A stretch of DNA of 64,000 bases from Nesterenkonia populi (GTDB taxonomy: Bacteria; Actinomycetota; Actinomycetes; Actinomycetales; Micrococcaceae): NCBI RefSeq assembly GCF_007994735.1, contig NZ_VOIL01000001.1, positions 1,116,001-1,180,000 on the forward strand, given 5' to 3'. The notes beneath the pieces were generated by a model. That model worked only from the letters and a program-made list of their open reading frames with translations. It had not been told where the DNA came from and did not search any database. Numbering within the stretch: the first letter of the stretch is position 1; each line of letters starts with the position of its first letter. Positions 7,313-34,271 of this stretch are shown piece by piece. The position numbers and the translations under genes were made by a program.

Positions 7313-8938
7313 ATGAGCGAGCGAATCAGTACTGGTCAGACCTTGCCGGGGGTTCCGTCGTCTGAGGCGGCTCCGGGCGGCTTGCAGCATTTGGTGGCTG
7401 AGGCGGCGGAGCGGTCTTCCAGTGACACCATCATCATTTTGGGGAAGGGGCCGTCGGCGGATCAGGCGACGGGGCGGGCCTTCCGGCACAACACGGTGAT
7501 TGGTGTGAACGATGCTGAGCGCATCCAGCCCACGGATGTCACGATTTTCCATGAATCGTGGGTGGCGGAGTCGATCTTGGATGAGGGGCTGCGCTCGCGT
7601 GCGTATGTGACGGCCACGGATTTTGATGTGCCGGGCAAGACGGTGGTGCGGCTGCCGTTCAAGCCTTTGGCAAATGATGAGGAAGACATCATGCTGTCCC
7701 GGTTCCAGAGCCGGGAGGAGGTCGCCATTGAGGAGGCGATGTTCCTGACCGCTCTGGAGATCTCCCGAGCGATCGCGGACCATAAGGGCCGGCCTCAGAC
7801 GGTATACATGGTGGGCTTCGACTTCACGCCGGGTGCGGGGATGGCCCGGGCGGCCACCACCCAGTACGCGCCGCATCTGACGTCTGGCCGCGGCGCGGGC
7901 ATTCACCTGCAGCAGTACATTCTGCGCAACGCGCTGTACGCCCTGGAGGATTCGAACCTGTCGGTGCACCATGTGGGCACTCATGAGTTCTCGAGTCTGA
8001 CCATTGAGGATCTGAACGAGAAGTTCCGGATGCTCATCTCTGAGCCCACGGGCCAGATCCCGGTGGTGCGGGAGGAGCCGGAGCCTGAGATCCCGCAGGT
8101 GGAGGTCACCGCGGAGATCACCACGAACCACTTCGGTGACTTGGACCGGCTGGAGCGGCTGGTGCGGGCGGCGCATTCGGCGGGCGCTGACTGGGTGAAG
8201 GTCCAGAAGCGTGAGGTGGAGTCCTTCTACGCTCCGGAGCAGCTGGCCCGGGCGTATAAGTCGCCGTTCGGCACCACGTTTGGTGATTACCGACGCCAGC
8301 TGGAGCTGGATAAGACCGGGTTCCGGTTCCTCGATGGGCTGTGCAGGGACTTGGGCATCGGATGGTTCGCGAGTGTGCTTGATCAGCCGAGCTTCGAGTT
8401 CATGATGGAGCTCGAGGTCCCGCTGATCAAGCTGCCGTCGACGATCTCGGAGAAGCGAGACTATCTGAGCTTCGTCGCGGAGAACTACACGGGGTCCCTG
8501 GTGATTTCGACGGGAATGACGGATCAGTCGTACGAGGACTGGCTGCTCTCCACATTCACTCAGCAGGACACCTTGTATCTGCTCCACTGCAATTCGGCGT
8601 ACCCGACTCCGGATGAGCACACCAATATTGGCGTGGTTCGTCACTACGCGGAGTTGGCGGAGCGCCAGGCAGACAAGCCGGGCCCACGGATTGTGCCGGG
8701 CTATTCCAGCCACGACTTCGGGTGGATGGCCTCAGCGCTCGCCGTGGCCGCGGGTGCGGGCATGGTGGAGAAGCATGTGAAGCTGGGGAACACGGAGTGG
8801 GCACATTTCGACGCCGTGGCGGTGGACCTGATGACGGATGATTTCCGCGAGTACGTGGACCAGGTGCGCAAGGCGCAGCTCCATGTGGGCTCCACGGAGA
8901 AGCGCATCACCGCCTCAGAGCACCACAAGTACTACTGA
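7313..8938 (+). CDS. sialyltransferase-like domain fused to N-acetylneuraminate (NeuB)-type synthase
   Basis: A 541-residue two-domain protein. Residues about 38-235 resemble a GT42-type sialyltransferase fold: ILGKGPSAD (42-50, compare the family's GNGPS loop) and VGFDF (167-171). Residues about 263-520 are a NeuB TIM barrel, with AEITTNHFGD, VKVQ, STGMT, LLHCNSAYPTP, GYSSHDFG and VEKHVKL. NeuB enzymes condense a hexose or hexosamine with phosphoenolpyruvate to a nonulosonic acid. The usual C-terminal SAF/antifreeze-like domain is missing. The start (residue M-S-E-R) is 8 nt after a TAGACT hexamer (7299-7304), so the transcript is probably leaderless. It is the first gene of the glycopolymer locus. 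Confidence 0.82.
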   Translation: MSERISTGQTLPGVPSSEAAPGGLQHLVAEAAERSSSDTIIILGKGPSADQATGRAFRHNTVIGVNDAERIQPTDVTIFHESWVAESILDEGLRSRAYVTATDFDVPGKTVVRLPFKPLANDEEDIMLSRFQSREEVAIEEAMFLTALEISRAIADHKGRPQTVYMVGFDFTPGAGMARAATTQYAPHLTSGRGAGIHLQQYILRNALYALEDSNLSVHHVGTHEFSSLTIEDLNEKFRMLISEPTGQIPVVREEPEPEIPQVEVTAEITTNHFGDLDRLERLVRAAHSAGADWVKVQKREVESFYAPEQLARAYKSPFGTTFGDYRRQLELDKTGFRFLDGLCRDLGIGWFASVLDQPSFEFMMELEVPLIKLPSTISEKRDYLSFVAENYTGSLVISTGMTDQSYEDWLLSTFTQQDTLYLLHCNSAYPTPDEHTNIGVVRHYAELAERQADKPGPRIVPGYSSHDFGWMASALAVAAGAGMVEKHVKLGNTEWAHFDAVAVDLMTDDFREYVDQVRKAQLHVGSTEKRITASEHHKYY

Positions 8939-9023
8939 AGTCGGATGCTTGTTAAGTAGCGAAGGATGCCCATGCCCAGTAACAGGACGACTAATATTAG
9001 GATTAGGTCCGGTGCTTGTCTTG

Positions 9024-9043
9024 AGGGCAACGGAAGTTGCCCT
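9024..9043 (+). terminator. possible transcription terminator or stem-loop
   Basis: A perfect 8-bp inverted repeat (AGGGCAAC and GTTGCCCT) encloses a GGAA tetraloop of the GNRA type. It sits 86 bp after the NeuB-fusion stop and before the next gene. There is no proper U tract after the stem, so an RNA processing or stability element is also possible. Confidence 0.45.
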
Positions 9044-9123
9044 AGCCTTATTGAGGAGGCAATAGGACGGATGCCTCGTTGCTACCCAGCAGGGTCGATT
9101 TTAGGAGACGTGCAAAGATAGAA

Positions 9124-11391
9124 ATGCCAAAAATATCAGTGATTGTTCCCATTTATAATACCGAGCAATACCTGGAAAGGTGCCTGCGTTCATTGATGAC
9201 GCAGACATTTAGAAACTTTGAGATTCTTTGTGTAGATGACGTCTCTCCGGACAATAGTGTCGATATCATCGAGCGGCTGGCGGCGGAGGACGCCAGGATC
9301 CGCCTAATACGTCATGAGAAGAACCTTGGTCTGGGTGGCGCCCGAAATACTGGGCTGGAACAGGCAAAATCTGAGTGGATTGCGAGTGTAGATAGCGACG
9401 ACTATGTCGCATCAGACTTCCTTGAGATTCTTTGGAACGGTACTGAGGGAGGGCACTTTGACGTTGTCGTGTGTGGTTATGAAGAGATAAATGAGGACGG
9501 CGTGCCGCGTAGTCGTCACATGGCTTCGAAGAAGAAACTTGACCCCTTGCCCGAGGGAAGCAATCCATTCAAAATCACTAACCCTTCCTTCTGGAATAAG
9601 TTGTGGCGCCGCTCCCTGTACGCAGATAATGATATCTGGTTCCCTCACCACCTATACTATCAAGATAGGGCCACTACACCCCGCATTTACTCCACTATGA
9701 AAAATATCAACTTTGTCGGAGGTGTGCCTTATAAGTACCTAATTCGGGAGGGAAGCGTCACTCAATCCGTGAGTGACAAGCACCTCTTCGATCAAATTAG
9801 GGTGCAGGACGTACTGAAGGACTTCTTCGTTCAGCAGGGGACTTATGAAGGGTTTTCTTCAGAGTTCAGGGAGCGAGTTTTTCGAGGCTTTTCTTATCAT
9901 ACGGAGAATATTGTCCGCAGCCACCGTGCCGGAACGAAAGAGTCAAACGAGTATCTACGTCATTTGCTGTTGCTGCGCGAGGCGTATTTGGCGCTAGACG
10001 ACCGTTTTCGAGCGATGACTTTCGATGAGAAGAAGTCCGCATTGCTCAAACACGAAACGTTGCTCAGGTACGAACCGGAACAAAGCGTGACGCCAGCCAT
10101 CGAGAGCGCCACTCCATTTAGAGAGCCGTTGCCAGAAAACCCGAGAGTGCTGGTTCTCACGTTGCATTCCGGAGAGAACGAGTTCTCGCGTAGCAAAGCA
10201 TCGCTGGGTGCCCAGGTCCACACAAACTGGGAGCACCTGGTGATCGAAGGGCTGGAGAGCGCGGAGGCGCATTCAAAGCTATACGAGACCATCATGGAAC
10301 GAGCGAGGGAGTTTGACCTCTTTGTCAAACTTGATGCCGACACTTTGTTTGGGAACACGTTTGCGCTAGAGGATGTACTTTCGAAGTTCAGGTCCGACCG
10401 TGCCCTAGACCACCTCGTAGTTCCGTGCCGCGATTTTATGACAGGAGAGGACATCATCGGCGTTCACGCCTTCTCTCCTCGAGTTAGTTGGCCTCTAGGC
10501 GACGAGGACCTTTTCGTCGATCCGAACCCTGATTTTCCCGGTCGGAGTAAGGTGATGGACGCGCCTAAGCGAGCTTGGTTCTATCATTCGCCGGATCCAA
10601 GCCTTCTCCAGGCCTTCCATTTCGGTGCCCATCGGTGCCTTAAAATTACCCAGCCAAATCGAGCCGTAAGTGAAAAGCGGACTTATGGAATTCGAGAGCA
10701 GTGGCGGGTTCTCTTGAGGGTACGTCGGCAATACGACAAGAGAAAGGATCGCCGGCATGCTCTGGCCTTGATTGGGGCTGATCTAGTTCAGAGGGGTCTC
10801 ATTGACCTGGAGGCTGCCAACTATCACAGCCACTCCCTAAAATCGGCGTTCGAGACATGGGCTGCTCGGACAAGTACCGAACTAGATACGCGAATTCAAG
10901 AAATGTGGACTGACGAGCAAGCAGCTTTGGCTTGGTATCGAGAGGCAGCCGGGACAGAGGGACTTGTTGCGATGGGTGAATATGGAGCCCGGAACCAGAT
11001 CGAGGCCAATTCGACTAGCAAGATCGCGAAGGCTGGGCTCCAACAAGCAGAGCTCCCCCCTGGACCCGTCTTCCGTGAAGTTTACGAGGAGGCGGTTGGG
11101 AAACTCCGCGAGGCGCATTACCAGGCTGCTTCTGAGCTTTTCCAAGTAGCCGCTCAAATACGTTCTTGGTCAAAACTGGCTAAAGTTGGTATGGCTGAGG
11201 CTTACGTTGGGCTGGGGGAAAAAGCAAGTGCGCTGGAGATCTATAAGGCGCTTGTCAGAGTCTGGCCCGAAGACCCCAAGTTAGATCGCCGGTATCAGGA
11301 GCTTTCGTCCAGTACCACCCTGCCTACTGTAAAGCTTCCACCTAGATCTATCCAGTCTAAGCCACGAGCTACTAGAGAAGCAGCAAAATAG
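9124..11391 (+). CDS. multidomain glycosyltransferase (two GT-A-like domains, TPR-like C-terminus)
   Basis: A 755-residue protein. Residues 1-230 are a GT2 domain: ISVIVPIYNTEQYLERCLRS, then VDDVSPD and the metal-binding VDSDDY. A second GT-A-like segment follows (about 330-480), with VLVLTLHSGENEFSRSKASL and a KLDADTLFG DxD-type motif. The last about 80 residues look like TPR helices (AASELFQVAAQIRSW, AEAYVGLGEKASALEIYKALV). The ATG at 9124 is chosen because GT2 homology starts there; AGGAG at 9103 is rather far, and an in-frame TTG at 9079 is possible. GC is much lower than in flanking genes. The sugar donor is unknown. Confidence 0.82.
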   Translation: MPKISVIVPIYNTEQYLERCLRSLMTQTFRNFEILCVDDVSPDNSVDIIERLAAEDARIRLIRHEKNLGLGGARNTGLEQAKSEWIASVDSDDYVASDFLEILWNGTEGGHFDVVVCGYEEINEDGVPRSRHMASKKKLDPLPEGSNPFKITNPSFWNKLWRRSLYADNDIWFPHHLYYQDRATTPRIYSTMKNINFVGGVPYKYLIREGSVTQSVSDKHLFDQIRVQDVLKDFFVQQGTYEGFSSEFRERVFRGFSYHTENIVRSHRAGTKESNEYLRHLLLLREAYLALDDRFRAMTFDEKKSALLKHETLLRYEPEQSVTPAIESATPFREPLPENPRVLVLTLHSGENEFSRSKASLGAQVHTNWEHLVIEGLESAEAHSKLYETIMERAREFDLFVKLDADTLFGNTFALEDVLSKFRSDRALDHLVVPCRDFMTGEDIIGVHAFSPRVSWPLGDEDLFVDPNPDFPGRSKVMDAPKRAWFYHSPDPSLLQAFHFGAHRCLKITQPNRAVSEKRTYGIREQWRVLLRVRRQYDKRKDRRHALALIGADLVQRGLIDLEAANYHSHSLKSAFETWAARTSTELDTRIQEMWTDEQAALAWYREAAGTEGLVAMGEYGARNQIEANSTSKIAKAGLQQAELPPGPVFREVYEEAVGKLREAHYQAASELFQVAAQIRSWSKLAKVGMAEAYVGLGEKASALEIYKALVRVWPEDPKLDRRYQELSSSTTLPTVKLPPRSIQSKPRATREAAK

Positions 11392-11433: not shown

Positions 11434-12441
11434 TTGTCTGTATTGGTTACTGGGTCCGCTGGATTTATTGGTGCCGCTGTGGCGGATTCTCTCTTGAGGG
11501 ACGGTTTTTCTGTTGTGGGGCTAGACAACCATAGTCACTACTATGATCCCTCGCTCAAGGAAGCCCGTGTGCGTCGCCTGGCGACATATCCTCGATATAG
11601 CCACTATCGAGTCGATCTATGTGATCATTCGGCATTGGACGAGATTGTTCGTTCGTCTCAGCCAGGCATTGTTGTCCATTTGGCCGCTCAGGCGGGGGTG
11701 CGTTACTCACTGAAAGAGCCCAGAGCCTACGCAAACAGCAATATTGTTGGTTTCGTTAATATTCTCGAAGCAAGCAGATCGGTTCAGGTTGAGCATTTTG
11801 TGTATGCGAGCAGTTCAAGTGTGTATGGAGCGAACAAGTCCCTCCCTTTCTCCACTAAAGATAATGTCGATCACCCACTTAATCTTTATGCGGCTACAAA
11901 AAAATCAAATGAGCTCCTAGCGCATTCTTATAGTCACTTATTCAATATGCCCACGACTGGACTCCGTTTTTTCACTGTATATGGCCCCTGGGGTCGGCCT
12001 GATATGGCGCCATATAAGTTCGTTAAATCAGCGCTCGAGGGACGCGCTATAGACGTCTACAACTTTGGTGATCATCAGCGCGACTTCACTTACATTGATG
12101 ATGTAGTTGAAGGCGTTCGTCTCGTAATGGAAAAGTCGGCACAGGGTCAAGCTGAGTGGGATGGGCATGCCCCTGATCCAGCAAGCAGCGCAGCACCTTG
12201 GCGCGTTCTGAATATTGGTAATTCAAACCCTGTTGACCTCATGGAATTTATCTCGGCGGTTGAGGAGGCGTCCGGTGTCACCATGGAGAAGAACCTTCTG
12301 CCAATGCAGCCTGGTGATATGCGCGCGACATATGCAGATGTAAGTGTCTTGCAATCTGAATTCGGATACAGGCCAAATACTTCTGTGCGGACAGGAGTTC
12401 GGGCGCTAGTTAATTGGTACGAGGAATACTATGGTCTTTAG
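11434..12441 (+). CDS. UDP-glucuronate 4-epimerase-like NAD-dependent epimerase
   Basis: A 335-residue extended short-chain dehydrogenase. It has the N-terminal NAD motif GSAGFIGAAV, catalytic YAATK with an upstream SSSSVYG, and the family block HLAAQAGVRYSL with GLRFFTVYGPWGRPDMA typical of CapI/WbnF-type UDP-glucuronate 4-epimerases. It would supply UDP-galacturonate for surface polysaccharide. The start codon is TTG with AAGGA 8-10 nt upstream. It belongs to the low-GC segment and is full length although an IS30 gene follows within 10 bp. Other UDP-hexose 4-epimerase activities cannot be excluded. Confidence 0.87.
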   Translation: MSVLVTGSAGFIGAAVADSLLRDGFSVVGLDNHSHYYDPSLKEARVRRLATYPRYSHYRVDLCDHSALDEIVRSSQPGIVVHLAAQAGVRYSLKEPRAYANSNIVGFVNILEASRSVQVEHFVYASSSSVYGANKSLPFSTKDNVDHPLNLYAATKKSNELLAHSYSHLFNMPTTGLRFFTVYGPWGRPDMAPYKFVKSALEGRAIDVYNFGDHQRDFTYIDDVVEGVRLVMEKSAQGQAEWDGHAPDPASSAAPWRVLNIGNSNPVDLMEFISAVEEASGVTMEKNLLPMQPGDMRATYADVSVLQSEFGYRPNTSVRTGVRALVNWYEEYYGL

Positions 12442-12447
12442 TGTGAG

Positions 12448-13512
12448 CTAAAGGAGGCCCTGGCGGGATGGCGAATTCAAGAGGTGAGCGCAAGGAGCTC
12501 TGTGAACTTCTCCGAGCGGGGTCCTATAGCCCAGAGTTTTCCTCGGGCGGGTGTTCAGGCTCAACTGAATTTCGTCCAGTTCTGAGCGGGTATGACGGCT
12601 GAGGTCAGTGCCTTTAGGCAAGTACTGACGCAGCAGTCCATTGGTGTTCTCGTTGCTGCCTCGTTGCCACGGCGCGTGTGGATCGCAGAAGTAGATCGGG
12701 ATGCCTGTAGCAGTGGTGAACTGGGCGTGCTGAGCCATCTCTGCTCCCTGATCCCACGTGATGCTCTGTGCCAGCTCCTGAGGAAGCGTGGCGATGGCCC
12801 CACGCATCGCTTCTTCTACCTGCGGGGCGCTCTTACCCGTTGGAAGATGCAGCAGCAGGGTGAATCTGGTGTGACGCTCCACCAGCGTGCCTACGGCGCT
12901 GCGGCTACCCTCTCCGAGGATCAGGTCGCCCTCCCGTTGGCCAGGAACTGCGCGATCTTCCGCCTCGGCAGCACGCTCGCTGAACATCACCATCCCTGGT
13001 AGCCGGCCTCGTCGTTCAGCCACACCGCTGCGGCACTTGCGGGTGGTCTTGCCTGAACGTAGACAGCGCGCCAGCTCTCGGCGCAGAGCGCCTCGGCCCT
13101 GGACAAACAAGCTCTGATAGATCGTCTCGTAGCTCACATGCATCTCAGGATCGGTGGGGTACTCCAACCGTAACCGGGATGCGATCTGCTGAGGAGACCA
13201 CAGCTTCAACAGTCGCTCAGTCACCTCAAATGCCAGCCGCTCTGAGTCCAGTTTCAGCGGCTTAGGCCGCCGGGACTGCACCCGGGCATCTTCATGACAA
13301 GACCAGGCTGAATAATTCTCTCGCCCGCCGCCTCGAACGACCTCGCGGCCGATCGTCGAAACTGCGCGCCCGAGCTTCCCAGCGATAGCAGTCAGAGAAC
13401 GGCCCAACCGGAGACTGACCACAATCTGCTCGCGTTCATAGATCCTCAGATGCCCATTCCTAGGTTGCCAGCCATAAGGCTTAGCCTCCAGATGACGCCT
13501 GTGAAGTCTCAA
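12448..13512 (-). CDS. IS30-family transposase
   Basis: A 354-residue transposase. The N-terminal helix-turn-helix block (YEREQIVVSLRLGRSLTAIAGKLGRAVSTIGREV) and the DDE core are visible: GDLILGEG, ITWDQGAEM and NENTNGLLRQYLPKG, then the closing LNTRPRKTLGYRTP. The reading frame is intact, so the enzyme may be active. Its 5' end abuts the IS481-type element: the apparent ATG at 13512 lies inside that element's terminal repeat, so the native start may have been lost or lies a few codons further in. Its 3' end is just behind the epimerase gene. Confidence 0.9.
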   Translation of the reverse strand: MRLHRRHLEAKPYGWQPRNGHLRIYEREQIVVSLRLGRSLTAIAGKLGRAVSTIGREVVRGGGRENYSAWSCHEDARVQSRRPKPLKLDSERLAFEVTERLLKLWSPQQIASRLRLEYPTDPEMHVSYETIYQSLFVQGRGALRRELARCLRSGKTTRKCRSGVAERRGRLPGMVMFSERAAEAEDRAVPGQREGDLILGEGSRSAVGTLVERHTRFTLLLHLPTGKSAPQVEEAMRGAIATLPQELAQSITWDQGAEMAQHAQFTTATGIPIYFCDPHAPWQRGSNENTNGLLRQYLPKGTDLSRHTRSELDEIQLSLNTRPRKTLGYRTPLGEVHRAPCAHLLNSPSRQGLL

Positions 13513-13595: not shown

Positions 13596-14867
13596 GTGTC
13601 GAAGTTCAATGATCCTGTTGATCCTCGTATCCGCTTAGCGATCTCACAGTGGCCTGATGATGTACCGCGGGGATCGGTCTCCAGTTCTGTGCCGAGCATG
13701 GGATCTCGCGGAAGTCGTTTACAAGATCCTGAACCAGGCCCGGGATCGCGGGGCAGCTGCGGCGCTGGAACCGCGTTCCCGGCGTCCGAAGTCCAGTCCC
13801 TCCAGGCTGGATGAGCAGCTCAAGAGCCAAGCGCTGCAGGTCCGGGAAGCCCTGGCCTCCTCAGGGCTGGATCATGGGCCGATCAGCGTGTTCGAGAAGA
13901 TGCGCTCCATGGGTATCACCCCACCGGCGGTGGCCTCATTGGCCAGGATCTTCCGGCAAGCAGGGGTGGCCAAAGAGGAGCCGCGGAAGCGGCCCCGGGC
14001 TGCTTACCGACGGTTTGTCTATCCGGCGCCGAACTGCTGCTGGCAGCTCGATGCCGCGGAGTATGTGCTCACCGGTGGGCGTAAGGCGGTGATCTTCCAC
14101 CTCCAGGATGATCACTCCCGGCTGGCGATTGCCTCGGTGGTCGCCACAGGTGAGACCTCCGATGCTGCGATCAGGGTGGTGAAGAAGGGCATCGCTGCCT
14201 ATGGGGTGCCGCAGAAGCTGCTCACCGATAACGGTGCTGCGCTGAACCCTTCACGCCGTGGGGTGACCGGGCAGCTGTTCACCTATGTGAGCAGCTTCGG
14301 GATCACCCCGATCACTGGCAAGCCGGGTAAGCCCACCACCCAGGGCAAGAATGAGCGGTTCCATCAAACCTTGTTCCGCTACTTGCATGCACAGCCGCTG
14401 GCAGAGACGATCACGCAGCTGCAGGCCCGGTCGATGCCTTCGATCTGATCTATAACACCCAGCGGCCCCACCAAGGCCTACCGGGCAGGATCACCCCCGC
14501 GGCGGCCTGGGCCGGCACCGCTGTGGCTCACCCGCCGCGGCCAGCACCGGCACCGGTGGAGCCCCAGACACCGGATACTGCCGCTGAGGTGGCTGATAGG
14601 CCGGAGTCTCTGCCCCTGGAGCCGGACAGCGGATGGGCAGGTGATGAGATCAGGAAGGTCAACCAGGTCGGACAGGTTCATGTAAAAGGGGTCCGCTACC
14701 AGATCAGCATGGCTCTGGCCCGCCAGCACGTCCATGTGCTCTGGGACCAGGAGACCATCATCTTCGTCGACACCAACGGCGAGATCCTCATCGAACACCC
14801 CTGGCCACCGAAGACCACCGGCCACATCAGTAACCGAGGCCAACGCAAACCGGGCCCCGCCCCCTGA
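13596..14867 (+). pseudogene. IS481-family transposase, disrupted by three frameshifts
   Basis: The protein can be followed through all three frames. A GTG at 13596 starts VSKFNDPVDPRIRLAIS in one frame; FCAEHGISRKSF continues in the second from about 13685; YKILNQARDRG follows in the third from 13720 to about 14435; and VDAFDLIYNTQRPHQGLPGRITPAAAW resumes in the first frame to a stop at 14867. The rve-type core is intact between the breaks (WQLDAAEY, TDNGAAL, GKNERFHQTLFRYL). Each break is repaired by restoring one base, and at each the sequence looks like a homopolymer run shortened by one. The product would be non-functional unless these are sequencing errors. Confidence 0.85.
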
Positions 14868-14951: not shown

Positions 14952-15084
14952 CACCAAACTGTAGGGCACGTCAGCAGACCCGATGCTAGTGCGGTTTGCT
15001 TGCGCAACTTGGTTGAGGTCGCGCTTCACATCAGGTGGCATACTAGGACGGTCAACGTGCTGTCGTCATTTGAGAGTGGAAGGG

Positions 15085-24700: not shown

Positions 24701-25435
24701 ATGCTCGACGAACTCGTCATCATCCCTGCCCGCTATCGGTCATCTCGCCTGCCCGGCAAGCCCCTGGTGGACCTCGTGGGCAAGCCGATGATCATCCGGA
24801 CCGCCGAGCGGTGCTTCGAAGTCACGGACCGGGAACACGTCGTCGTCGCCACCGATGACGAACGGATCGCTGAAGCTTGCCACGAGCACGGCGTAGGGTA
24901 CGAAATGACCAGCCTCGACCACCTCACCGGCGGCGATCGGGTCGCAGAAGTCGCCGCGCGGATCCCAGCGAAGACCTACATCAACGTTCAAGGTGATGAG
25001 CCCGTCTTCAACCCCGAAGACCTCCGCATCATCGTCGACGCCGCACGAGCCGACCGAACCAAGACTTACATCGGCTACTGCGACATGGACGAGGAGCAGT
25101 GGAAAGACTCCAAATACATCAAGCTGCTCTTCGGCCAGAACAAGCAGCTGCTCTACATCGGCCGCGCCCCCGTGCCCCACGGTCACACCGGCGAATTCCA
25201 GGTCGGCTACCGGCAAGTCTGCGTCTACGCCTACCCGCTCGAAGTCCTCCAAGCGTTCGCGGCCCCCGGCAAGAAGACCCCCCTGGAGGAGATCGAAGAC
25301 AACGAAGTGATGCGGTTCCTCGAACTCGGTCTGCCCGTCGAAGTCCTCGAAATGTCAGACGACTCCATGCCCGTAGACCGCCCAGGCGATGTCCCCCTGG
25401 TTATTGCCCGGCTTCACGAACTCGGACTCGCCTAA
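24701..25435 (+). CDS. kdsB: KdsB-type CMP-ulosonate cytidylyltransferase (CMP-Kdo synthetase-like)
   Basis: 244 residues, normal length for KdsB. It has the nucleotide-binding IIPARYRSSRLPGKPL, VVVATDD, DHLTGGDRVAEV and NVQGDEPVF blocks, plus PLEEIEDNEVMRFLELG, as in the 3-deoxy-manno-octulosonate cytidylyltransferases. It transfers CMP from CTP to a keto-acid sugar. True Kdo is a Gram-negative sugar, so in an actinobacterium the substrate may instead be another ulosonic acid such as Kdn. No kdsA, kdsD or neuA is seen nearby; the NeuB fusion is the only synthase. Confidence 0.87.
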   Translation: MLDELVIIPARYRSSRLPGKPLVDLVGKPMIIRTAERCFEVTDREHVVVATDDERIAEACHEHGVGYEMTSLDHLTGGDRVAEVAARIPAKTYINVQGDEPVFNPEDLRIIVDAARADRTKTYIGYCDMDEEQWKDSKYIKLLFGQNKQLLYIGRAPVPHGHTGEFQVGYRQVCVYAYPLEVLQAFAAPGKKTPLEEIEDNEVMRFLELGLPVEVLEMSDDSMPVDRPGDVPLVIARLHELGLA

Positions 25436-25446: not shown

Positions 25447-26598
25447 TCACCCTGCGGTGCCGACCGCCTTCGCGCGGGCCAGCTCACGCACCTCCAGGGC
25501 GGTGGCCTGAATCTGCTGGGCGTCATCGCTATGCAACGCGTCCAGCATGAGGTGGGCCTCCTCCGTCAGTCCCGACGCCGAGGCCTCCACCCCGTAGAGG
25601 ACGCTCATGTACTGGGCATGCTGCGCAAGCTCCACCACCTTCGCCGGGTCCTGCTTGCGCAGCATCAGTGCCGGCAACTGGTTCTTCAGGAAACGGTTCC
25701 AATAATGCACACGCATCCGGCCCGCCAGCTTGCCCACCTCACCGGCCCGGCCACGCGCCAGGGCCAGGTTCCCGAACACGTCATGCAGGAACCGCAGCTG
25801 CTGAACCGCCGTGATCTCCGCCCGAGAAATATGCCCGCGGCGCGCACTGCCCTCCACCTCCGAAGGCTCATCCGGCTCCAACGTGATGAAGTAGCAGTCC
25901 ACATCATTCACCCGGGCCGTCCGCCGCGCATACAAGAACGCCGCCACCATGAACGGGTGGTCATTGCAGTAGATCAGCTCCTCATTGAACCGGTACGGCA
26001 ACGCTCGCAGAAACTCACTCCGGAACAGCTTCTGCACATGCAGACTGTTCAACCACCCCGAGTGATACTTGCCGGCTCGGGAACCCTCAGCGTCCCGAAT
26101 ATTCGGTGCCGGACGATTCACCCCCACATACCGGCCCGTCACCACATCCGCCCGGTGCCGCTCCGCCTCCCGTGTCAGCGCCGCCAGCGCCTCCGGACCC
26201 AGGTAATCATCACCGTCCATCAAGAACACGAACTCCCCGCGCGCCCGTTCAATCACCAGATTCCGGCCACGCGACGGGCTGCCCGTATTCCCCTGAGCAT
26301 GGACCTCAAAACCAGCCCACGCCGCCCTCTGCGCATAAGACGAGGCGATCTCCACCGTCGAGTCCGTCGAACCATCGTCGACCACGATCACCTCAACCCG
26401 CTCAGCCCCCAACGACTGCTCCACCACACTCTCCAGACAACGGGCGATCCTGTCGCCTTCGTTATGGCTGGTGACACCCACGGTCACCAAGGGTCGCTTC
26501 CGCGGGTAGGCCAAGAAGGACCTTCGCACCTTCGAGGAACGGCTGTGCGCGCGGCGACGCAAACGACGCAGAGATCGTTGGTTCAGGATCACACTCAT
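25447..26598 (-). CDS. family 2 glycosyltransferase
   Basis: 383 residues. A basic start is followed by a GT2 domain: VTVGVTSHNEGDRIARCLESVV, VIVVDDGSTDST, NTGSPSRGRNLVIERARGEF and the metal motif FLMDGDDYLG. The C-terminal half is helical and resembles the tail of actinobacterial wall-polymer glycosyltransferases. Convergent with kdsB (11-bp gap) and divergent from the first TPR protein. Confidence 0.87.
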   Translation of the reverse strand: MSVILNQRSLRRLRRRAHSRSSKVRRSFLAYPRKRPLVTVGVTSHNEGDRIARCLESVVEQSLGAERVEVIVVDDGSTDSTVEIASSYAQRAAWAGFEVHAQGNTGSPSRGRNLVIERARGEFVFLMDGDDYLGPEALAALTREAERHRADVVTGRYVGVNRPAPNIRDAEGSRAGKYHSGWLNSLHVQKLFRSEFLRALPYRFNEELIYCNDHPFMVAAFLYARRTARVNDVDCYFITLEPDEPSEVEGSARRGHISRAEITAVQQLRFLHDVFGNLALARGRAGEVGKLAGRMRVHYWNRFLKNQLPALMLRKQDPAKVVELAQHAQYMSVLYGVEASASGLTEEAHLMLDALHSDDAQQIQATALEVRELARAKAVGTAG

Positions 26599-26676: not shown

Positions 26677-28662
26677 ATGCTGAAACCACAGGTGCTGGGC
26701 GCAGAAGCGGGACGACGAGCGATACGGATCCTCGGGCGAATCCCAGGGGCGGAGCCGGTACTCGCACGCGCCATCATCGCCTCCGCCCGCACGGTCCCCA
26801 CCCCCGTTCAAGCAGAATTCAACGGTCACGACCCCAAACTGCGCAGGCTCCACGCCCAGGCGGCCACAGTCCTCTTCGAAGCAAACCCCCGCGGCGCCCA
26901 ACAAGTCCTCGAAGACCTGGACCTCGAGACCGCCCAGAACGCCGACCAGCTCGAACGCATGGCCGTGCGCTACATGAAGCTCGGCGAATTCGAAGCCGCC
27001 CTCGCCATGCGCCGCCGGGCCGTCGCCCTCGAGCCCGAAGACCCCCAGCGCCACCTCGCCCTAGCCCGCGCTCTGCAGCGGGCCACCAGGAGCGGGCCCA
27101 CCCCTGACCCCGTTCTCGGGCTCCGCGACGGCGGGCATCCCCAGGTGAATGCCGCCCGGGAATCGCTCCGCAAAGCAGAACAGCTGGCCCCCAGCCATCC
27201 CGCAGTCCTGCACGAGCAGGGGCACCTTGAATTCACTCACGGAGACCCCGACCAAGGCCTCGCCCTCCTGGAGCAAGCCGTGACCGTTCGCCCCAGCGCT
27301 GCCTGGTACAAAGATATCGGTCAGCGCTACCGCAAACCCCACATCGGTCGGCTCGACGACGCGCTCGCGGCGTACGAAAAAGCCTTGAAGCTCAATCCGA
27401 CCGATGGTCAGGTTTTCCGCTCCGTGATCGTTCTGGGCTGCCGGGCGGGCCACAATTGGCCCCGCCATTGGGACAGTGCCGAACGGTACGAAACCTCTCG
27501 GGGCTGGAAGCTGCCCGGCGGAGGACACCGGCGTCGGAGCCTCCTTGTGCAGGAATTTGCGGACCTCTTCACGGGGGAGCCGATCAGCGAAGCTCGCGCT
27601 CAGGCCGCCGTCGTCCGCCTGGAAGAAACAGGCAGCAGCCGCGGACGGCTCTCCTGGCAGACCACAGCCCTCATCGCCTACCGGCTCCAGTTCGCCGGAC
27701 ACGTCGGCGCCGGCTACCGGCTGCGCAGACAGCTCGCCGCACGCACCCGCGCATGGCTCGGCACCGTCTCCGGCGGGCACGTCGGCCACCGACGAAAGCT
27801 GCTCGCCGCCCTCGTCTACCTCGACAGGCTCGACGAGGCGCTCAAGCTCATCGACCCCATGCCCTGGCAGCCGCAGAACCGGCTCGCCGAGCAGCAGCTG
27901 CAGAAGCTCGCCGCAGACACCCACCTGCTCCGCGGCAGCACCGAGCCCTACCTCGAATACTCCCGGACCGCCCGAGCGGAAGACCCCATGCCCGCCGAGA
28001 CGCTCACCGAACAGGTCGTCGCCGGCAAGCGGGTCGTCATCGTCGGCCCCGTAGACACCGGTGACCGGCTCGGAGCGCTCATCGACAGCTACGACGTCAT
28101 CGTCCGGCCGCGGTTCGCCCCCGAGTTCGTGGAGCAGGACCAGGCCGCACAGGGCAGCCGCACCGACATCGTCTACCTCAACGACCACGACATCCACGCC
28201 GCCGTGCCTCTCATGCGTGAGGCCGTCAGCGCGGGGGAGCTGCAGCTCGCCGTCGCCCGCCCTCCCAGCCTCAGCCGTCACCGTGACATTGGCGAACCTT
28301 GGCTGAGGTTCTCCCGGCAGGAATTCGCGCTCTCTCACCACGGTGCCCTGCTGGGCATCCCTCGTATGGTCTACGACCTCGCCCAGTTCGAGCCCGCTGA
28401 GATCGCCGTGCTCAACACCGACCTCTACACCGGCACTGACGCTTTCGCCGCCGGCTACCGGGACACCAAAGACACCGTCTTCGGGCCGGGCTCGGCGATG
28501 AACGACCTCATCGTCAACCACGACCTCCGCTTCGACTTCACCTTCCTGCAGCGCATGCAGGACGCCGGGCTGCTCACCGCCCACGGCCGCACCGCAGAAG
28601 TCCTCGCGCTCACCCCTGACGAATACGTCCACGCCCTCGAAACCGGAAGCGCCCTGCGATAG
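26677..28662 (+). CDS. TPR protein with sialyltransferase-like C-terminal domain
   Basis: 661 residues. Residues about 45-250 contain TPR-like helical repeats (AVRYMKLGEFEAALAMRRRAVALEPEDPQRHLALA, ALAAYEKALKLNPTDGQVF). From about residue 450 a Rossmann-like domain begins with VVIVGPVDTGDRLGALIDSYDVIVR, the layout of the GT29/GT42 sialyl motif (strand, turn, I-D, D-V-V/I-x-R), followed by GSRTDIVYLND. It would transfer an activated ulosonic acid. The ATG is 8 nt after a TAGACT hexamer (26663-26668), so it is probably leaderless. A longer reading frame upstream is antisense to a real gene and was rejected. Confidence 0.75.
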   Translation: MLKPQVLGAEAGRRAIRILGRIPGAEPVLARAIIASARTVPTPVQAEFNGHDPKLRRLHAQAATVLFEANPRGAQQVLEDLDLETAQNADQLERMAVRYMKLGEFEAALAMRRRAVALEPEDPQRHLALARALQRATRSGPTPDPVLGLRDGGHPQVNAARESLRKAEQLAPSHPAVLHEQGHLEFTHGDPDQGLALLEQAVTVRPSAAWYKDIGQRYRKPHIGRLDDALAAYEKALKLNPTDGQVFRSVIVLGCRAGHNWPRHWDSAERYETSRGWKLPGGGHRRRSLLVQEFADLFTGEPISEARAQAAVVRLEETGSSRGRLSWQTTALIAYRLQFAGHVGAGYRLRRQLAARTRAWLGTVSGGHVGHRRKLLAALVYLDRLDEALKLIDPMPWQPQNRLAEQQLQKLAADTHLLRGSTEPYLEYSRTARAEDPMPAETLTEQVVAGKRVVIVGPVDTGDRLGALIDSYDVIVRPRFAPEFVEQDQAAQGSRTDIVYLNDHDIHAAVPLMREAVSAGELQLAVARPPSLSRHRDIGEPWLRFSRQEFALSHHGALLGIPRMVYDLAQFEPAEIAVLNTDLYTGTDAFAAGYRDTKDTVFGPGSAMNDLIVNHDLRFDFTFLQRMQDAGLLTAHGRTAEVLALTPDEYVHALETGSALR

Positions 28663-28670: not shown

Positions 28671-30380
28671 ATGGCCGTCTCACTGCACGGGCTGCGCGGC
28701 AAGATCGCCGCGGCCGCCGTCGTCAAAACCGTCGTCCGCCGCGCCGGAAAAGCCTCGCCCGTCGCCAAGGCGATCGGGACAGTCGCCGACGTCGTCGAAC
28801 CCCAAGACGTCGCCGCCGGAGAAGCAGAGCCCACCGGCACCTACCGGGGACTCATCGCCGGAATGCTCCGCGAGGCGCTGCCCGCCGACCCCGCAGAAGG
28901 CCAGGGAGCGGTGTTCGACGCCGTCGCAGGACTCATCCCCGGGACACCCGCAGAGCTTCCCACCTACGAGGACCTGGCAGCCCGCGCCGAAGCCGACCCG
29001 AGCCCCGGCAACCTGCTCGCCGCCGCAGCCGAAGCCCGCCGGCCCTACGTCAACCAGCTCGACGCGGCCCGCGAGCACTACGAGGCCGCCTTCGCGAAGA
29101 ACCCCCACGACCTGCGCGCCGTCGAAGGCATCCTCAGCACCACCGGCCGCACCGACTGGGACTGGGAACGAGTATGGGACGCAGCCTCCACCCTCAAGCC
29201 CCGCCGCGGCCTCCTCGGCGAAGACTCCCTCTTCTGGGACCCCATCGACCAGCTCTTCCAGCCCCAGCCCCCCGCCGAAGCCATCCGCCGGGCAAAGCCC
29301 CTCCTCGAGCAGTACCGGCCCCAAGTCACCCGGCTGCACCAGCTGCTCCTCGACGCCATCGCCGCACGCCTCCAGTTCCTCGGCCAATTCCGCCTGGGCC
29401 AGGACCTCCGCGCCGCCATGGCCGAGAACCGGGTCCGCGAACTCCGCGGCATCCCGCTGGAATCCCCCCTCTGGCTCAAACACCTCCTCGGGGCCTACGC
29501 CCACCTCGACGACGACAAGCGCCTTGCCCGCACCGCCCGCCGACCCCTGCTCGACACTGCCCCCGCCGAAGCCGGAATCGCCGCCGAGAAGCTCGCCGCC
29601 GACGCTGCCCTCTACACCGGCGACGCCGAACCCCTGGCCGCCCACGCCGAGCGCCGACGCAAAGAGCTGCCGCTGCCCGGCGAGGGGCGGATGCTGGAAC
29701 TGGTCCGCGGCGCACGGGTCGCCGTCGTCGGCCCCTCCGCCACCCAGGACCAGCTCGGCGAGCTCATCGACGCCCACGACGTCGTCGTCCGCACCCAGTA
29801 CAAGCCCGAGGCGCTCGCCGGCCGGGAGGCCCAGGCGGGGGAGCGGACCGACATCGCCTACTTCCAGACCAAAGACCTCACCGCCGAGTGGGACCACCTT
29901 CTCCAGACCATCCCGGGCAGTCCGCTGAAGCTCGCCGTGGCGCGGCCGCTGATGCACACGCTCTTCACCCGCGACGGTGAAGAGGCCCCCGAATGGCTTC
30001 GGTTCGCCCGCTTCGAATACGGCCTCCACTTCCGCGGGGCACCCCTGGGCATCCAACGGGTCGTCTACGACCTGCTGCAGTTCGCCCCCGCCGAGATCGG
30101 GCTCTTCCACACCGACTTCTATGCCGGCCTCGGAACATTCACCGCCGGATACCGGCACAACGAAGAGACCTTCGGGCCGCGCTCGGCGCTCAACGACCTG
30201 GTCCTCATGCATGACCTCGGCTACGAATTCCGGCTCACCCGGCGACTTGCCCGAGCAGGCCTCATCACCCCGCACGGCACCACCGCTGAGGTCCTCGCCC
30301 TGACCGAGCCCGACTACCTCGAACGGCTCGAGCACGGCCCGCTGGCGGCCCTCTCACCCGGACGCACCGAAGCCAGCTGA
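28671..30380 (+). CDS. second TPR-like/sialyltransferase-like protein (paralogue of upstream gene)
   Basis: 569 residues. It shares the C-terminal plan of its neighbour: VAVVGPSATQDQLGELIDAHDVVVR at about residue 350, then GERTDIAYFQTKDL, GAPLGIQRVVYDLLQFAPAEIGLFHTDFYAG, and FGPRSALNDLVLMHDL. The N-terminal 340 residues are Ala-rich helices and less clearly TPR. AGGAAAAACT precedes the ATG and the gap from the upstream stop is 8 bp, so the two are cotranscribed. Duplication followed by divergence is inferred. Confidence 0.75.
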   Translation: MAVSLHGLRGKIAAAAVVKTVVRRAGKASPVAKAIGTVADVVEPQDVAAGEAEPTGTYRGLIAGMLREALPADPAEGQGAVFDAVAGLIPGTPAELPTYEDLAARAEADPSPGNLLAAAAEARRPYVNQLDAAREHYEAAFAKNPHDLRAVEGILSTTGRTDWDWERVWDAASTLKPRRGLLGEDSLFWDPIDQLFQPQPPAEAIRRAKPLLEQYRPQVTRLHQLLLDAIAARLQFLGQFRLGQDLRAAMAENRVRELRGIPLESPLWLKHLLGAYAHLDDDKRLARTARRPLLDTAPAEAGIAAEKLAADAALYTGDAEPLAAHAERRRKELPLPGEGRMLELVRGARVAVVGPSATQDQLGELIDAHDVVVRTQYKPEALAGREAQAGERTDIAYFQTKDLTAEWDHLLQTIPGSPLKLAVARPLMHTLFTRDGEEAPEWLRFARFEYGLHFRGAPLGIQRVVYDLLQFAPAEIGLFHTDFYAGLGTFTAGYRHNEETFGPRSALNDLVLMHDLGYEFRLTRRLARAGLITPHGTTAEVLALTEPDYLERLEHGPLAALSPGRTEAS

Positions 30381-30462
30381 CACTCAGTCTGCGCCGACCG
30401 TCAACACAGGCGGCCTCGTTATAATTCTGTGATTGTCCTAGGCCTGCCGTACTCTGGATTCT

Positions 30463-31539
30463 GTGACGGATCAGCTTCTCGACAGCACCCCCTCCCCTGA
30501 AGAGCAGCCGCGGAAGAAGGCGTCGTTGGGCAAGCGCATCGCCCTCATCACCTTCTCGATCGCCGGGCTCATCGTGGTCGGCGGCGTGGCCGTGGCCGCC
30601 CTCTACCTGAGCTCGCTCAGCTCCAGCTACGAGGAATCCGTCAACGTCATCCCCGAGGACGAGACCTTCCCCGAGGACGAGGACCGCCCCGACGCACCCA
30701 CCGCGGAGGACGAGGACGGCGAAGAGACCGACTCCGAGCAGATCAACATCCTGCTCATCGGCTCCGACGCCGGCGGAGGCTCCGGCGAGGACGAGAACGT
30801 CCCGTGGCTGCCCAACGCCGCCCGCGCCGACAGCATCATCTGGGTCCACATCCCCCACGAGCGCGACTCCGTGCAGATGATGTCCATCATGCGGGACACT
30901 TGGGTGCCCATCGCCGGCCAGGGCGAAGCCAAGATCAACTCCTCGCTCAGCTACGACGGCCCCGCCACCGCCGTCGCCACCGTCGAGGACCTCGTCGGAG
31001 TGCCCATCGACCACGTCGCCGCAGTCGACATGGAAGGCTTCCAGAGCCTGGTCGGCGCCATGGACGGCGTCAACGTCAACTCCCCGCAGAGCTTCACCTC
31101 CCGCGACGGCTACCACTTCAGCTCCGGCCCCCAGCACATGAGCCCCTCCGAATCGCTCAGCTTCGTCCGGGAGCGCCAGGCCTTCGCCGACGGCGACTAC
31201 ACCCGGGTGGCCAACCAGCAGGCCTTCATGCAGGGCGTCCTCAGCGACGTCCTCAACCCCCAGACCCTCTCCAACCCCGCCCGGGTCCACGAGATGGTCA
31301 GCGGATTCACCCCCCACATGACCGTGGACTCCCAGCTCGCCGACTCCGGATACATCGCCGACCTCGGATGGAACATGCGCAGCATCCGCTCCGGCGACGT
31401 CACCAGCTTCACCCTCCCCAACGGCGGCATCGGCACCGCCGGCTCCGAATCCATCGTGATCGCCGACTACAACGCCTTCACCGAAGCCGGAGAAGCCATG
31501 CGCGAGGGCACATTCGACGAATACGCCGCCCAGCACTGA
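30463..31539 (+). CDS. LytR-CpsA-Psr (LCP) family protein
   Basis: 358 residues. A basic cytoplasmic start and one transmembrane helix (IALITFSIAGLIVVGGVAVAAL, about 26-48) are followed by an acidic linker and the LCP domain (from about 90: INILLIGSDAG, ADSIIWVHI, MSIMRDTWV, AKINSSLSY). LCP enzymes move polymer from lipid carrier to peptidoglycan, outside the membrane. The start is GTG, 7 nt after a TACTCT hexamer (30450-30455). It sits next to the ulosonic-acid genes, which makes it the candidate attachment enzyme for that polymer. Confidence 0.92.
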   Translation: MTDQLLDSTPSPEEQPRKKASLGKRIALITFSIAGLIVVGGVAVAALYLSSLSSSYEESVNVIPEDETFPEDEDRPDAPTAEDEDGEETDSEQINILLIGSDAGGGSGEDENVPWLPNAARADSIIWVHIPHERDSVQMMSIMRDTWVPIAGQGEAKINSSLSYDGPATAVATVEDLVGVPIDHVAAVDMEGFQSLVGAMDGVNVNSPQSFTSRDGYHFSSGPQHMSPSESLSFVRERQAFADGDYTRVANQQAFMQGVLSDVLNPQTLSNPARVHEMVSGFTPHMTVDSQLADSGYIADLGWNMRSIRSGDVTSFTLPNGGIGTAGSESIVIADYNAFTEAGEAMREGTFDEYAAQH

Positions 31540-31598
31540 CCTTCTGACAGGCGACATGATTGGTTCAGCCAGGCCGCCGCGCCGTAAGCTGGACCATC

Positions 31599-33095
31599 AT
31601 GACCACCCCTCAGGACGACGCCGCAGAGCTTGAGGCGCTCGCGAACCACCCGGACACTGACTGGGAGGTTCTGCACTGGATCGCCGAGAACTACCCCGAA
31701 CTGCGGCCAGCCGTCGCCGCGAACCCCGGCACCTATCAGGAGCTCATCGACGCCCTGGCCTCCCTCGGCGACCCTGAGATCGACTCCGCCATCGCCATGC
31801 GAGGCCGCCGCGGGGTGAACTCCCAGCGAGCATCCACCGACCCGCTCGCCGGGATGTTCGAAACCACCACGAGCCTCCCCGCCTACACCGACGACCACTA
31901 CGCCGCCTACTCCCAGTACACCCCCTACCCGGGTGCCGCCGAGGAGCAGGACACCGGGGACCTCCCCGCCGGCCCCTTCACCGAGGAGCCGGAGGACCCC
32001 GCGGCCGAAGAGGCTCCGACCCAGGAGCCCCAGCCCGCCGAGGAGCCGGCGCCCGTCTCCTGGGCATCCGAGATGCAGCCCCGCAACGGCTCCGCAGAGA
32101 CTGCCGAGCCCGCCGGCCCCGCCCCCGTGGAGGAGGACGAGGCCGCAGCCGACTATGCCCTCGCCCCCGCCGCGTCTCAGGGCGCTCGGACCATTCCGCC
32201 CGCACCGCACCAGATGAACGGCGGCTATACCGGCTCCGAGCAGAAGGAGCGCCGCAGCCTCGTCCTGCCCATCGCCGCCGCTGTCGGCGGTGTCCTGGCG
32301 CTGGGCATGGTCGTCGCGGTGATGGTCCTCCTCTTCGTCGGGGACGAGGAGGACCCTGTCGCCGAGCCCGGGGCCGAAGAGCCCGCCGAACCCGAGGAGG
32401 AGGATACTCCGGAGGAGGAGGGCGAGCAGCCGCCCGCTGAGGACGAGGCCCAGGACGAGCCGGAGGCCGATGAGCTGGGCGAAGCCCAGGCCGCGCTCGC
32501 ATCCCTGCCTGAGGAGACCAGCTGCGAGCCCGGCGACGACTCTGGCGTCCTCGCCGCACTGCTCAGCGCAGGCGCTGACGAGGACGGCTTCCCCGAGGAC
32601 GAGCACACCAGCACCCTGCAGGAGGCCCTCTCCGGGCTGCAGGACTCCTGCGACGCCGAGCACGCCGGCCAGACCGTCGGCGAAGCCCGAGACGCCGCAG
32701 ACGCCGGCGCGCTCAACGAGATCAGCTATGACTGGGTGGACCGCGGCGTCGGCGACCGCGGCGCCCAGACCGTCAGCGGGTTCGCCACCCCCGACGGCAA
32801 CATCGAATGCGACTTCTCCGACGGGGTCACCTGCACCGTCTACGAGCACAACTACAACGACGGCTGCCCCGGCGGCGAAGGCACCACCTACTCCATGACC
32901 GTGACCGGCGCCGAGATGGACTGCGACAACCTCGTGGAGCCCGACGAGGGCCGCGAGTCCATGCCGTACGACGAGATCGGCACCGACGGGTTCATCGAGT
33001 GCGCCTCCCTGGAGGACCGGGTCAGCTGCTACAGCGCCCTGAACCCCTCCATCGGATTCGAGATCTCAGAGACCGGCCACTACACCTACGGGTGA
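31599..33095 (+). CDS. leucine-rich-variant domain membrane protein
   Basis: 498 residues. Residues 5-70 form a variant leucine-rich repeat (NHPDTDWEVLHWIAENYPELRPAVAANPGTY). A long Pro/Glu-rich cytoplasmic linker follows to about 215, then one transmembrane helix (LVLPIAAAVGGVLALGMVVAVMVLL), an acidic extracellular linker and a C-terminal Cys-rich domain. The start is the ATG 8 nt after TAAGCT (31585-31590). Proteins of this build are common in Micrococcaceae; the function is unknown. Confidence 0.8.
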   Translation: MTTPQDDAAELEALANHPDTDWEVLHWIAENYPELRPAVAANPGTYQELIDALASLGDPEIDSAIAMRGRRGVNSQRASTDPLAGMFETTTSLPAYTDDHYAAYSQYTPYPGAAEEQDTGDLPAGPFTEEPEDPAAEEAPTQEPQPAEEPAPVSWASEMQPRNGSAETAEPAGPAPVEEDEAAADYALAPAASQGARTIPPAPHQMNGGYTGSEQKERRSLVLPIAAAVGGVLALGMVVAVMVLLFVGDEEDPVAEPGAEEPAEPEEEDTPEEEGEQPPAEDEAQDEPEADELGEAQAALASLPEETSCEPGDDSGVLAALLSAGADEDGFPEDEHTSTLQEALSGLQDSCDAEHAGQTVGEARDAADAGALNEISYDWVDRGVGDRGAQTVSGFATPDGNIECDFSDGVTCTVYEHNYNDGCPGGEGTTYSMTVTGAEMDCDNLVEPDEGRESMPYDEIGTDGFIECASLEDRVSCYSALNPSIGFEISETGHYTYG

Positions 33096-33104
33096 CAGGG
33101 CGGC

Positions 33105-34271
33105 TCAGCTGAGCTTCAGGGCCTCGACGATCCGGTCCGAGCACCGTCCCGGCTCCGTCGGGAGCTCGCCGGAGGGCCCGGTCACATAGTCGAGATGCCG
33201 GGCCCGCCACGCGGTGTAGTCCAGCGAGCCCAGGCTGAGCGCCGTCGCGACCGCTTCCTCCGCGGTGGAGACGATCGGCCCCGGGGACTCCGCCTCGTAG
33301 TCCAGGGGGAAGCCGCGGGTCTGCCCGAACTCCTCAAGGTCATAGGCCCAGAAGATCGTTGGAATATCGCGCAGCGCGGCCTCGTAGACCACCGCCGAAT
33401 AGTCCGAGATGATCACGTCCGCCACGGACAGCCAGTCCATGATTCCGAACTCGGAGCCGATGAGGGTCTCGCCGTCGTCAGGCAGAGGGGTCTTGTCCAC
33501 CGGGTGGGGGATGATCACCAGGTTCGCGTCCGTGTGCCGGAACTGATCCGCGAGCTGCTGGTAGGGCAGGCTTCTGTTCAGCCGCGACGTCGGCGTGTAG
33601 AGCACCGTGCGGCCCTCGGCCAGCTGCGGGTAGCGCTTCAGGATCCGCTCCCGGCGCTTCGCATTCCCCGTCTCGTCCAGCAGGTAGTCCACCCGTGCCA
33701 TCCCCAGCGGACGGATGGAGTCCGGCTCAATCTGGAACGCCTTGGCGAACACCTCGGCGGGCACGGTGCCGGCCGCGCACATGAAGGTGTAGTTGGCGTG
33801 CATCCGCATCACCTTCGCCACCGCCGGGTCCGGGCCCTCCGGGGTGCCCGCCACCAGGTAGGCGAAGTTCTTGAACCCTCCCAGCGCGTGCCAGATCTGC
33901 CCCACGGGCAGGCCCTTGCGGTGGTTCAGCACGCTGACGGGAATGATGTAGCCGTCCACGAGGATCGCCCGGCAGGTCGCCAGGTGGTACATCTCCCGGA
34001 GTGCGGCGAGGAGGTACCCGGCGGAGAGCTTCCTGTGCCGGATCACCTTGATCTCGTAGTCCGGGTGGTTCCGGCGGATCGAGTCCTTCAGCAGTGCGAA
34101 GTCCACCCGGATCTGCCGCAGGTCCCTGGTCATCAGCACCACTTTGCGCCGGGTCGGGAGAAGCTTCAGCAGCGCGTAGACGGCACGCGCCCCCAGCACC
34201 ATGATTCCCAGGGCATGCGGAAGGATTCGGCGAATAGCTCTATCCTCCCTCGGCGGACTGCGGACATGCAC
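33105..34271 (-). CDS. CDP-glycerol glycerophosphotransferase-family protein
   Basis: 388 residues of the TagB/TagF-type family that builds glycerol- or ribitol-phosphate polymers. The signature VIISDYSAVVYEAALRDIPTIFWAYDLEEF and the RGFPLDYE block are present, as is TVLYTPTSRLNRS at the donor-binding fold start. A Shine-Dalgarno-like GGGAGGATAG lies about 20 nt inside the listed start but is followed by ATT, so the exact start is uncertain. It lies convergent with the leucine-rich-variant gene and marks the right edge of the surface-polymer locus. Confidence 0.85.
   Translation of the reverse strand: MHVRSPPREDRAIRRILPHALGIMVLGARAVYALLKLLPTRRKVVLMTRDLRQIRVDFALLKDSIRRNHPDYEIKVIRHRKLSAGYLLAALREMYHLATCRAILVDGYIIPVSVLNHRKGLPVGQIWHALGGFKNFAYLVAGTPEGPDPAVAKVMRMHANYTFMCAAGTVPAEVFAKAFQIEPDSIRPLGMARVDYLLDETGNAKRRERILKRYPQLAEGRTVLYTPTSRLNRSLPYQQLADQFRHTDANLVIIPHPVDKTPLPDDGETLIGSEFGIMDWLSVADVIISDYSAVVYEAALRDIPTIFWAYDLEEFGQTRGFPLDYEAESPGPIVSTAEEAVATALSLGSLDYTAWRARHLDYVTGPSGELPTEPGRCSDRIVEALKLS

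Follow-up and report, generated by a model that had tools for sequence, protein, structure and literature searches.

The 64,000-nucleotide window analysed here, from contig NZ_VOIL01000001.1 of Nesterenkonia populi (genome of 2.55 Mb, two contigs), contains between positions 7,313 and 34,271 an island which is probably a surface-glycan biosynthesis locus, with a conserved core that would make and add an ulosonic (sialic-acid-like) sugar. This core encodes an unusual NeuB fusion synthase, a KdsB-type cytidine monophosphate (CMP)-sugar synthetase and two proteins, ST1 and ST2, with domains resembling the sialyltransferases of family GT29. It amounts to a real ulosonic-acid module, conserved and linked to genes for wall polymers, for which the wall linkage and the sugar are predicted from gene content. 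The original prediction held that the locus provides for the synthesis, activation, transfer and wall attachment of a keto-acid sugar. Folds, co-occurrence and synteny strongly support the first three functions, while wall attachment is deduced from the neighbouring genes. The coordinates and gene kinds first proposed hold, aside from the start of ST1 and a third sialyltransferase-like domain.

The fusion (7,313-8,938, plus strand; open reading frame 7,283-8,938) joins an N-terminal domain (residues about 25-245) to a NeuB-type ulosonate synthase barrel (about 260-538). Its membership of the NeuB family was correctly anticipated, as PF03102, which has its sole match in the genome here, covers residues 293-540 (E 1.1e-39; 136.7 bits against a cut-off of 22.1). 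Among solved proteins, the barrel best matches synthases of N-acetylneuraminic acid (Neu5Ac) and pseudaminic acid, and the NCBIfam model NeuB_NnaB gives 125.3 bits, below its cut-off of 399.65. In an alignment with the meningococcal enzyme, seven of the twelve active-site residues of the barrel are kept, four are changed and Phe288 is unaligned. The kept residues, including His215, Glu234, Lys129 and Glu25, are identical in all 76 fusions compared, while the equivalents of Asn74 and Phe112 are not retained. The protein stops at residue 540, directly behind the barrel, and the C-terminal SAF (antifreeze-like) domain with Arg314 is absent. The third sialyltransferase-like domain, which had been placed at the N-terminus of the fusion, finds no support. 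Neither Pfam (20 members scanned) nor the PDB sequences yielded a GT29 or GT42 match to the N-terminal domain, and profile comparison with the GT29-like domains gave an hhalign probability of 2%. A weak MptE-like lead was observed in two of the 20 members (best E 0.012), and the rows listed in structure searches with the whole fusion model all fall on the barrel, none addressing the N-terminal domain by itself. A viral origin of the fusion was dropped, with just two barrel-only matches (29% identity) in viral contigs. The synthase of one relative (G015, N. pannonica according to L057) is 92% identical, in an assembly with broken frames throughout the island.

The cytidylyltransferase encoded at 24,701-25,435 (plus strand) is the sole PF02348 match in the genome (122.2 bits). 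It exceeds one KdsB subfamily cut-off (PRK05450.1-5, 206.1 bits against 193), in agreement with the KdsB-type synthetase originally named, and falls below those of TIGR00466 kdsB (128.5 against 155.2) and PRK13368.1 (235 against 255). All 13 solved sequences that it matches are named 3-deoxy-manno-octulosonate cytidylyltransferase. Across phyla, the synthase is usually preceded by an inositol-monophosphatase-like gene: of 79 fusion synthase loci, 64 have one immediately ahead of the synthase in the same orientation (four were tested, all PF00459), and a cytidylyltransferase is found within 8 kb, on either strand, in 60. With Nesterenkonia and Garicola left out, 63 loci remain, for which these counts are 60 and 56, with both genes in 55. 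Several types of cytidylyltransferase occur, namely KdsB-, NeuA- and PseF-like. A dedicated phosphatase copy is missing in the window genome (best matches to the Nesterenkonia form at most 39.8 bits), and is present at more than 300 bits in 10 of the 19 NeuB-positive genomes of the genus, with a partial match in one further genome. The same trio occurs in capsule-type loci of Escherichia coli and Enterobacter (L228, L229, L231 and L232), where ABC (ATP-binding cassette) export genes are included in the stretch of three of the four loci read and one version also contains an O-acetyltransferase. Close copies of two tested versions are found in 4 and 11 of 5426 E. coli genomes (15 altogether). 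The sugar could not be derived via these loci, as no antigen structure could be linked to them. Literature searches turned up no paper on this fusion or on a phosphatase-synthase-synthetase cassette. Other combinations of the same domains were observed: a protein of 505-547 residues with two cytidylyltransferase matches lies beside the ST genes in several Nesterenkonia (L002 5382-6899, L003, L014 and L160), and a Nonomuraea open frame of 742 codons (L233 13585-15810) matches a NeuA-like cytidylyltransferase as well as the NeuB barrel.

ST1 (26,677-28,662, plus strand; start most likely at 26,677, which is common to its homologues) combines tetratricopeptide repeats (TPR) with a C-terminal GT29-like domain. 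ST2 (28,671-30,380, plus strand) carries its GT29-like domain at residues about 312-540, behind a helical, TPR-like superhelix predicted by modelling, and its repeat half has no TPR match in Pfam. Two of the three sialyltransferase-like domains proposed earlier are thus retained. The C-terminal domains are predicted by structure models to adopt the GT29 fold, and they contain the stretch G-x2-I-D-x2-D-x3-R where motif L sits as well as an H-x4-E/D motif. ST2 reaches 18.8 bits on PF00777, under the cut-off of 23, and five of 16 ST domains match this family with an E value of at most 0.01 (lowest 0.00077); being under the Pfam cut-off, the domains are termed GT29-like. The cut-off is passed by ST homologues in other phyla, including Bacteroidota, and by one Demequina protein. 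In a control, removal of a single Demequina row (itself Pfam GT29) from the GT29 profile renders the PDB matches hundredfold weaker. The sequence link was therefore rested on intermediates instead, the Bacteroidota proteins which pass PF00777. The search of 396 genomes of the order and the search of the loci both used the profile including this row, and matches at E 0.026 and 0.039 (L042 and L030) were dropped from the latter. These late checks weaken the direct sequence evidence for GT29, strengthen the indirect evidence and leave the overall assessment unchanged. In Demequina oxidasica (L015 15538-21479), a NeuA-like gene and another NeuB, the second in this species, adjoin the genes for a GT29 protein that exceeds the Pfam cut-off and for a GT8/pyruvyltransferase protein. 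No paper on TPR-GT29 proteins in actinobacteria turned up in literature searches.

Across 30 Nesterenkonia genomes, the window genome included, the NeuB fusion is encoded in 19 (PF03102 finds the identical 19), ST in 20, a PF02348 protein at 30 bits or more in 20 and the CDP-glycerol-type gene in 21. The 30-bit threshold was self-set; the remaining matches reach at most 28.7 bits and are nearly all in frames of about 460-630 codons, probably GlmU. The presence sets consist of the common 19 genomes, G006 (without NeuB) and G028 (CDP-glycerol-type gene only). Genome G006 alone has ST, the cytidylyltransferase and the CDP-glycerol-type gene without PF03102, which may reflect loss, an assembly gap or another sugar source. 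Mapped onto a MiaB tree with 28 genomes, the NeuB label takes five changes, at least four of them forced by well-supported branches, while the group without NeuB and ST (which contains G028) takes four, at least three of them forced. The NeuB label is clustered on this tree, in which many forks are weak (five changes against a shuffled mean of 8.5). Several tree changes with nearly one presence pattern indicate that the synthase, synthetase and transferase genes have been gained or lost jointly several times, although fewer times than the number of genomes suggests. In the order sample (at least 90% completeness requested; few candidates scored per genome, so that counts are lower bounds), at least 22 of the 396 genomes have a GT29-like match, seven of these matches being short or weak. 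All 22 also have NeuB, as compared to 151 of the 396 overall, and the fusion form is found in at least four. An excerpt of a genus comparison (PMC8875376) gives identical statistics (14.9693, p 0.0089) for COG2089 (SpsE) and COG1887 (TagB/SpsB), a hint of little weight, given that the figure recurs in the other group for Mrp, a COG without relation to these.

Downstream of ST2 lie the LytR-CpsA-Psr (LCP) glycopolymer transferase (30,463-31,539, plus strand; PF03816), a candidate attachment enzyme, an LRV_2-domain protein (31,560-33,095, plus strand) that is a conserved neighbour, and the CDP-glycerol:poly(glycerophosphate) glycerophosphotransferase-type protein (33,105-34,271, minus strand; PF04464, 124.4 bits). 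The LCP and CDP-glycerol-type assignments match those originally made. N. alba (G002) keeps the window order GT2b, ATP-grasp, KdsB, GT2c, ST1, ST2, LCP, LRV, CDP-glycerol-type and M16 protease; its ATP-grasp gene is inverted and the window genes between GT2b and ATP-grasp are absent. LCP falls within the fetched block in seven of 13 relative genomes (G002, G003, G006, G010, G011, G015 and G017), with some stretches ending early. NeuB is on the ST contig, at most 47 kb apart, in 13 of the 19 genomes (at most 3.1 kb in four) and on another contig in six, and the pathway genes neighbour each other in N. sedimenti, N. muleiensis and Demequina. Literature searches turned up no wall chemistry of Nesterenkonia, and the conserved neighbour genes make attachment of an ulosonic-acid polymer to the wall probable.

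In the proposed pathway, the NeuB fusion would condense phosphoenolpyruvate (PEP) with an aldose, free or phosphorylated, that is not N-acetylated, as the family and active-site residues of the enzyme suggest. A phosphatase would then strip the phosphate, if present, a role which in many relatives may fall to the inositol-monophosphatase-like enzyme encoded ahead of the synthase; with no dedicated copy in the window genome, a general phosphatase would have to stand in. The KdsB-type enzyme is predicted by its family to form the CMP-sugar, which ST1 and ST2 would transfer to the growing glycan, with the repeat halves possibly serving to hold an acceptor or a partner protein. Assembly of the polymer may be assisted by the GT2 and CDP-glycerol-type transferases, and LCP, as a conserved neighbour, would join the polymer to peptidoglycan.

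The genes point to a non-acetylated sugar. The original prediction saw no UDP-N-acetylglucosamine 2-epimerase, and this holds genome-wide, with no PF02350 match in a search that did not extend to NanE-type epimerases. An N-acetylated sugar, such as Neu5Ac, legionaminic or pseudaminic acid, would suit the closest solved relatives of the barrel, and PF02350 is over the cut-off in eight of the 19 NeuB-positive genomes of the genus. It is, however, not over it in the other 11 (including G008, G010 and G015, each less than 80% complete) and present in all ten genomes without NeuB and ST. The fusion furthermore lacks the SAF domain, whose Arg314 positions the N-acetyl group in the meningococcal enzyme (excerpt of PMC6795526), as well as the Asn74 and Phe112 equivalents, and an N-acetylated sugar is accordingly improbable. 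The seemingly partly exclusive distribution of PF02350 and NeuB/ST in the genus might arise from one wall polymer taking the place of another. The absence of PF02350 and SAF supports the earlier preference for 2-keto-3-deoxynonulosonic acid (Kdn) over Neu5Ac as regards a non-acetylated sugar; it does not single out Kdn, as 3-deoxy-manno-octulosonic acid (Kdo) or another acid fits equally. Kdn is tentatively the likeliest single named sugar, favoured by its presence in the teichulosonic acid of Streptomyces, according to excerpts of the literature.

Kdo or another eight-carbon acid is a possible, less likely second choice, favoured by the KdsB type and by the lack of a KdsA-family match in the whole genome (the search did not include arabinose-5-phosphate isomerase). 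The SAF-less NeuB would then use a pentose phosphate in the stead of KdsA, with activation by KdsB and transfer by the GT29-like enzymes. The KdsB subfamily score and the uniformly CMP-Kdo synthetase matches agree with this, and according to excerpts of the respective papers Kdo-8-phosphate synthases likewise lack a SAF-type domain (PMC6795526) and plant GT29-like proteins have been proposed as Kdo transferases for pectin (PMC5811610). Assignment of the sugar from the KdsB type was rejected because relatives exchange cytidylyltransferase types within the same slot. Some other non-acetylated ulosonic acid is less likely again.

Two further explanations dispense with a wall polymer or with a joint pathway. 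ST1 and ST2 share the TPR-plus-transferase layout of the O-GlcNAc transferase and SPINDLY, and might glycosylate proteins, with the wall genes as mere neighbours. SPINDLY is the first Foldseek row (E 3.6e-4), followed by O-GlcNAc transferase rows, but these extend over the chain at a root-mean-square deviation of 10-29. The presence pattern is moreover common to the CDP-glycerol-type gene, and the GT29 protein beside the cassette in other phyla is a lone domain of 253-263 amino acids in three of four cases, which makes protein glycosylation an unlikely role. The transposases, the low G+C middle part and the 16 kb separating synthase and synthetase could suggest a chance mosaic of unrelated glycan genes assembled by transposition. 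The nearly single presence pattern over several changes, the fact that N. sedimenti, N. muleiensis and Demequina carry the genes side by side and the block order retained by N. alba and other relatives render this highly improbable. A broader reading, possible though less likely than not, would make the fusion synthase the centre of an ulosonic-acid pathway for walls and capsules that spans phyla and is as yet undescribed. This would comprise the inositol-monophosphatase-like phosphatase, the synthase with its N-terminal domain and interchangeable CMP-sugar synthetases, next to which certain loci of Actinomycetota, Bacteroidota, Planctomycetota and cyanobacteria encode GT29-like transferases. 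It would proceed via a phosphorylated intermediate to what may be a new ulosonic acid, with the repeat-fused GT29-like enzymes forming a Gram-positive wall branch of the animal sialyltransferase family.

The island is not a single operon, as transposases, a remnant and variable glycosyltransferases separate the synthase from the KdsB-LCP block. The G+C content is 0.52-0.61 across 8-24 kb of the window, compared to 0.69 at 1-4 kb. The named organisms nearest to the window proteins are Nesterenkonia (N. pannonica, 92% in the best segment). Downstream of the synthase, the variable part encodes a GT2 glycosyltransferase whose C-terminus weakly matches TPR, under the cut-off (9,079-11,391, plus strand), and an NAD-dependent sugar epimerase/dehydratase (11,434-12,441, plus). 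It is interrupted by a transposase with HTH_38 (helix-turn-helix) and integrase core domains (12,448-13,512, minus), beside a second with an integrase core (13,657-14,448, plus). In many relatives, homologues of a large GT2 protein (14,983-17,589, plus) lie close to the transferase block or to NeuB, and in some relatives so do those of a rhamnosyltransferase-like protein (PF11316; 19,068-20,321, plus). Between these two window genes lies that of a GT8-type glycosyltransferase (18,032-18,985, plus). The protein at 20,318-22,201 (minus) has no Pfam match at E 0.001 and a weak XcbB/CpsF capsule-family match below the cut-off. The ATP-grasp-like protein with a cyanophycin-synthetase-like part (22,266-23,177, plus) is shorter than its relatives near NeuB in many other Nesterenkonia, with about 60-65 residues missing between two matched parts in an alignment with the N. 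sedimenti counterpart. A transposase-like remnant was recognised by eye at 23,648-24,019, and a GT2 glycosyltransferase at 25,447-26,598 (minus) occupies a slot conserved in relatives. A scan for promoter- and terminator-like sites gave 0 and 7, respectively, against shuffle means of 0.8 and 5.3.

With one synthase, one synthetase and two transferases in the window genome, the gene set is compact and lends itself to tests by single deletions. GT29-like enzymes are now placed in actinobacterial glycan loci, and three further phyla each or together provide a few loci in which GT29-like genes adjoin the same fusion-type synthase, which bears on the origin of the sialyltransferase family. The C-terminal fold, the stretch in the place of motif L and the H-x4-E/D motif are common to ST1, ST2 and the animal GT29 enzymes ST3Gal1, ST8SiaIII, ST6GalNAc2 and ST6Gal1, from which the two proteins differ by their extra repeat half and, for ST2, a score below the Pfam cut-off. 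The fusion shares the TIM barrel with its metal and PEP site with NeuB, PseI and SpsE, but has an extra N-terminal domain and a short EHHKY tail instead of SAF. In Serratia marcescens, neuB is required for the KDN-containing polymer of a capsule locus with neuA and neuB; its NeuB also has an extra domain, which is a sugar phosphate isomerase/epimerase (COG1082) (excerpt of PMC9000132), and the sugar was not assigned from this capsule as that fusion is a different one. In two other actinomycete NeuB regions (Nonomuraea and a Streptomyces plasmid; 30.8 kb read), NeuB matches the barrel part of the fusion only and no GT29-like match was found. The Kdn wall polymers of streptomycetes are known chemically and, in the literature excerpts, one gene region has been assigned, SCO4873-SCO4882 of Streptomyces coelicolor for teichulosonic acid, a wall glycopolymer with Kdn (PMC13011467, PMC7831098). 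The likeness to this locus lies in an actinobacterial wall glycopolymer with an ulosonic acid, which on the Nesterenkonia side is predicted from the genes. The Nesterenkonia system would be a variation on such teichulosonic-type systems, marked by its repeat-fused GT29-like transferases and its unusual fusion synthase.

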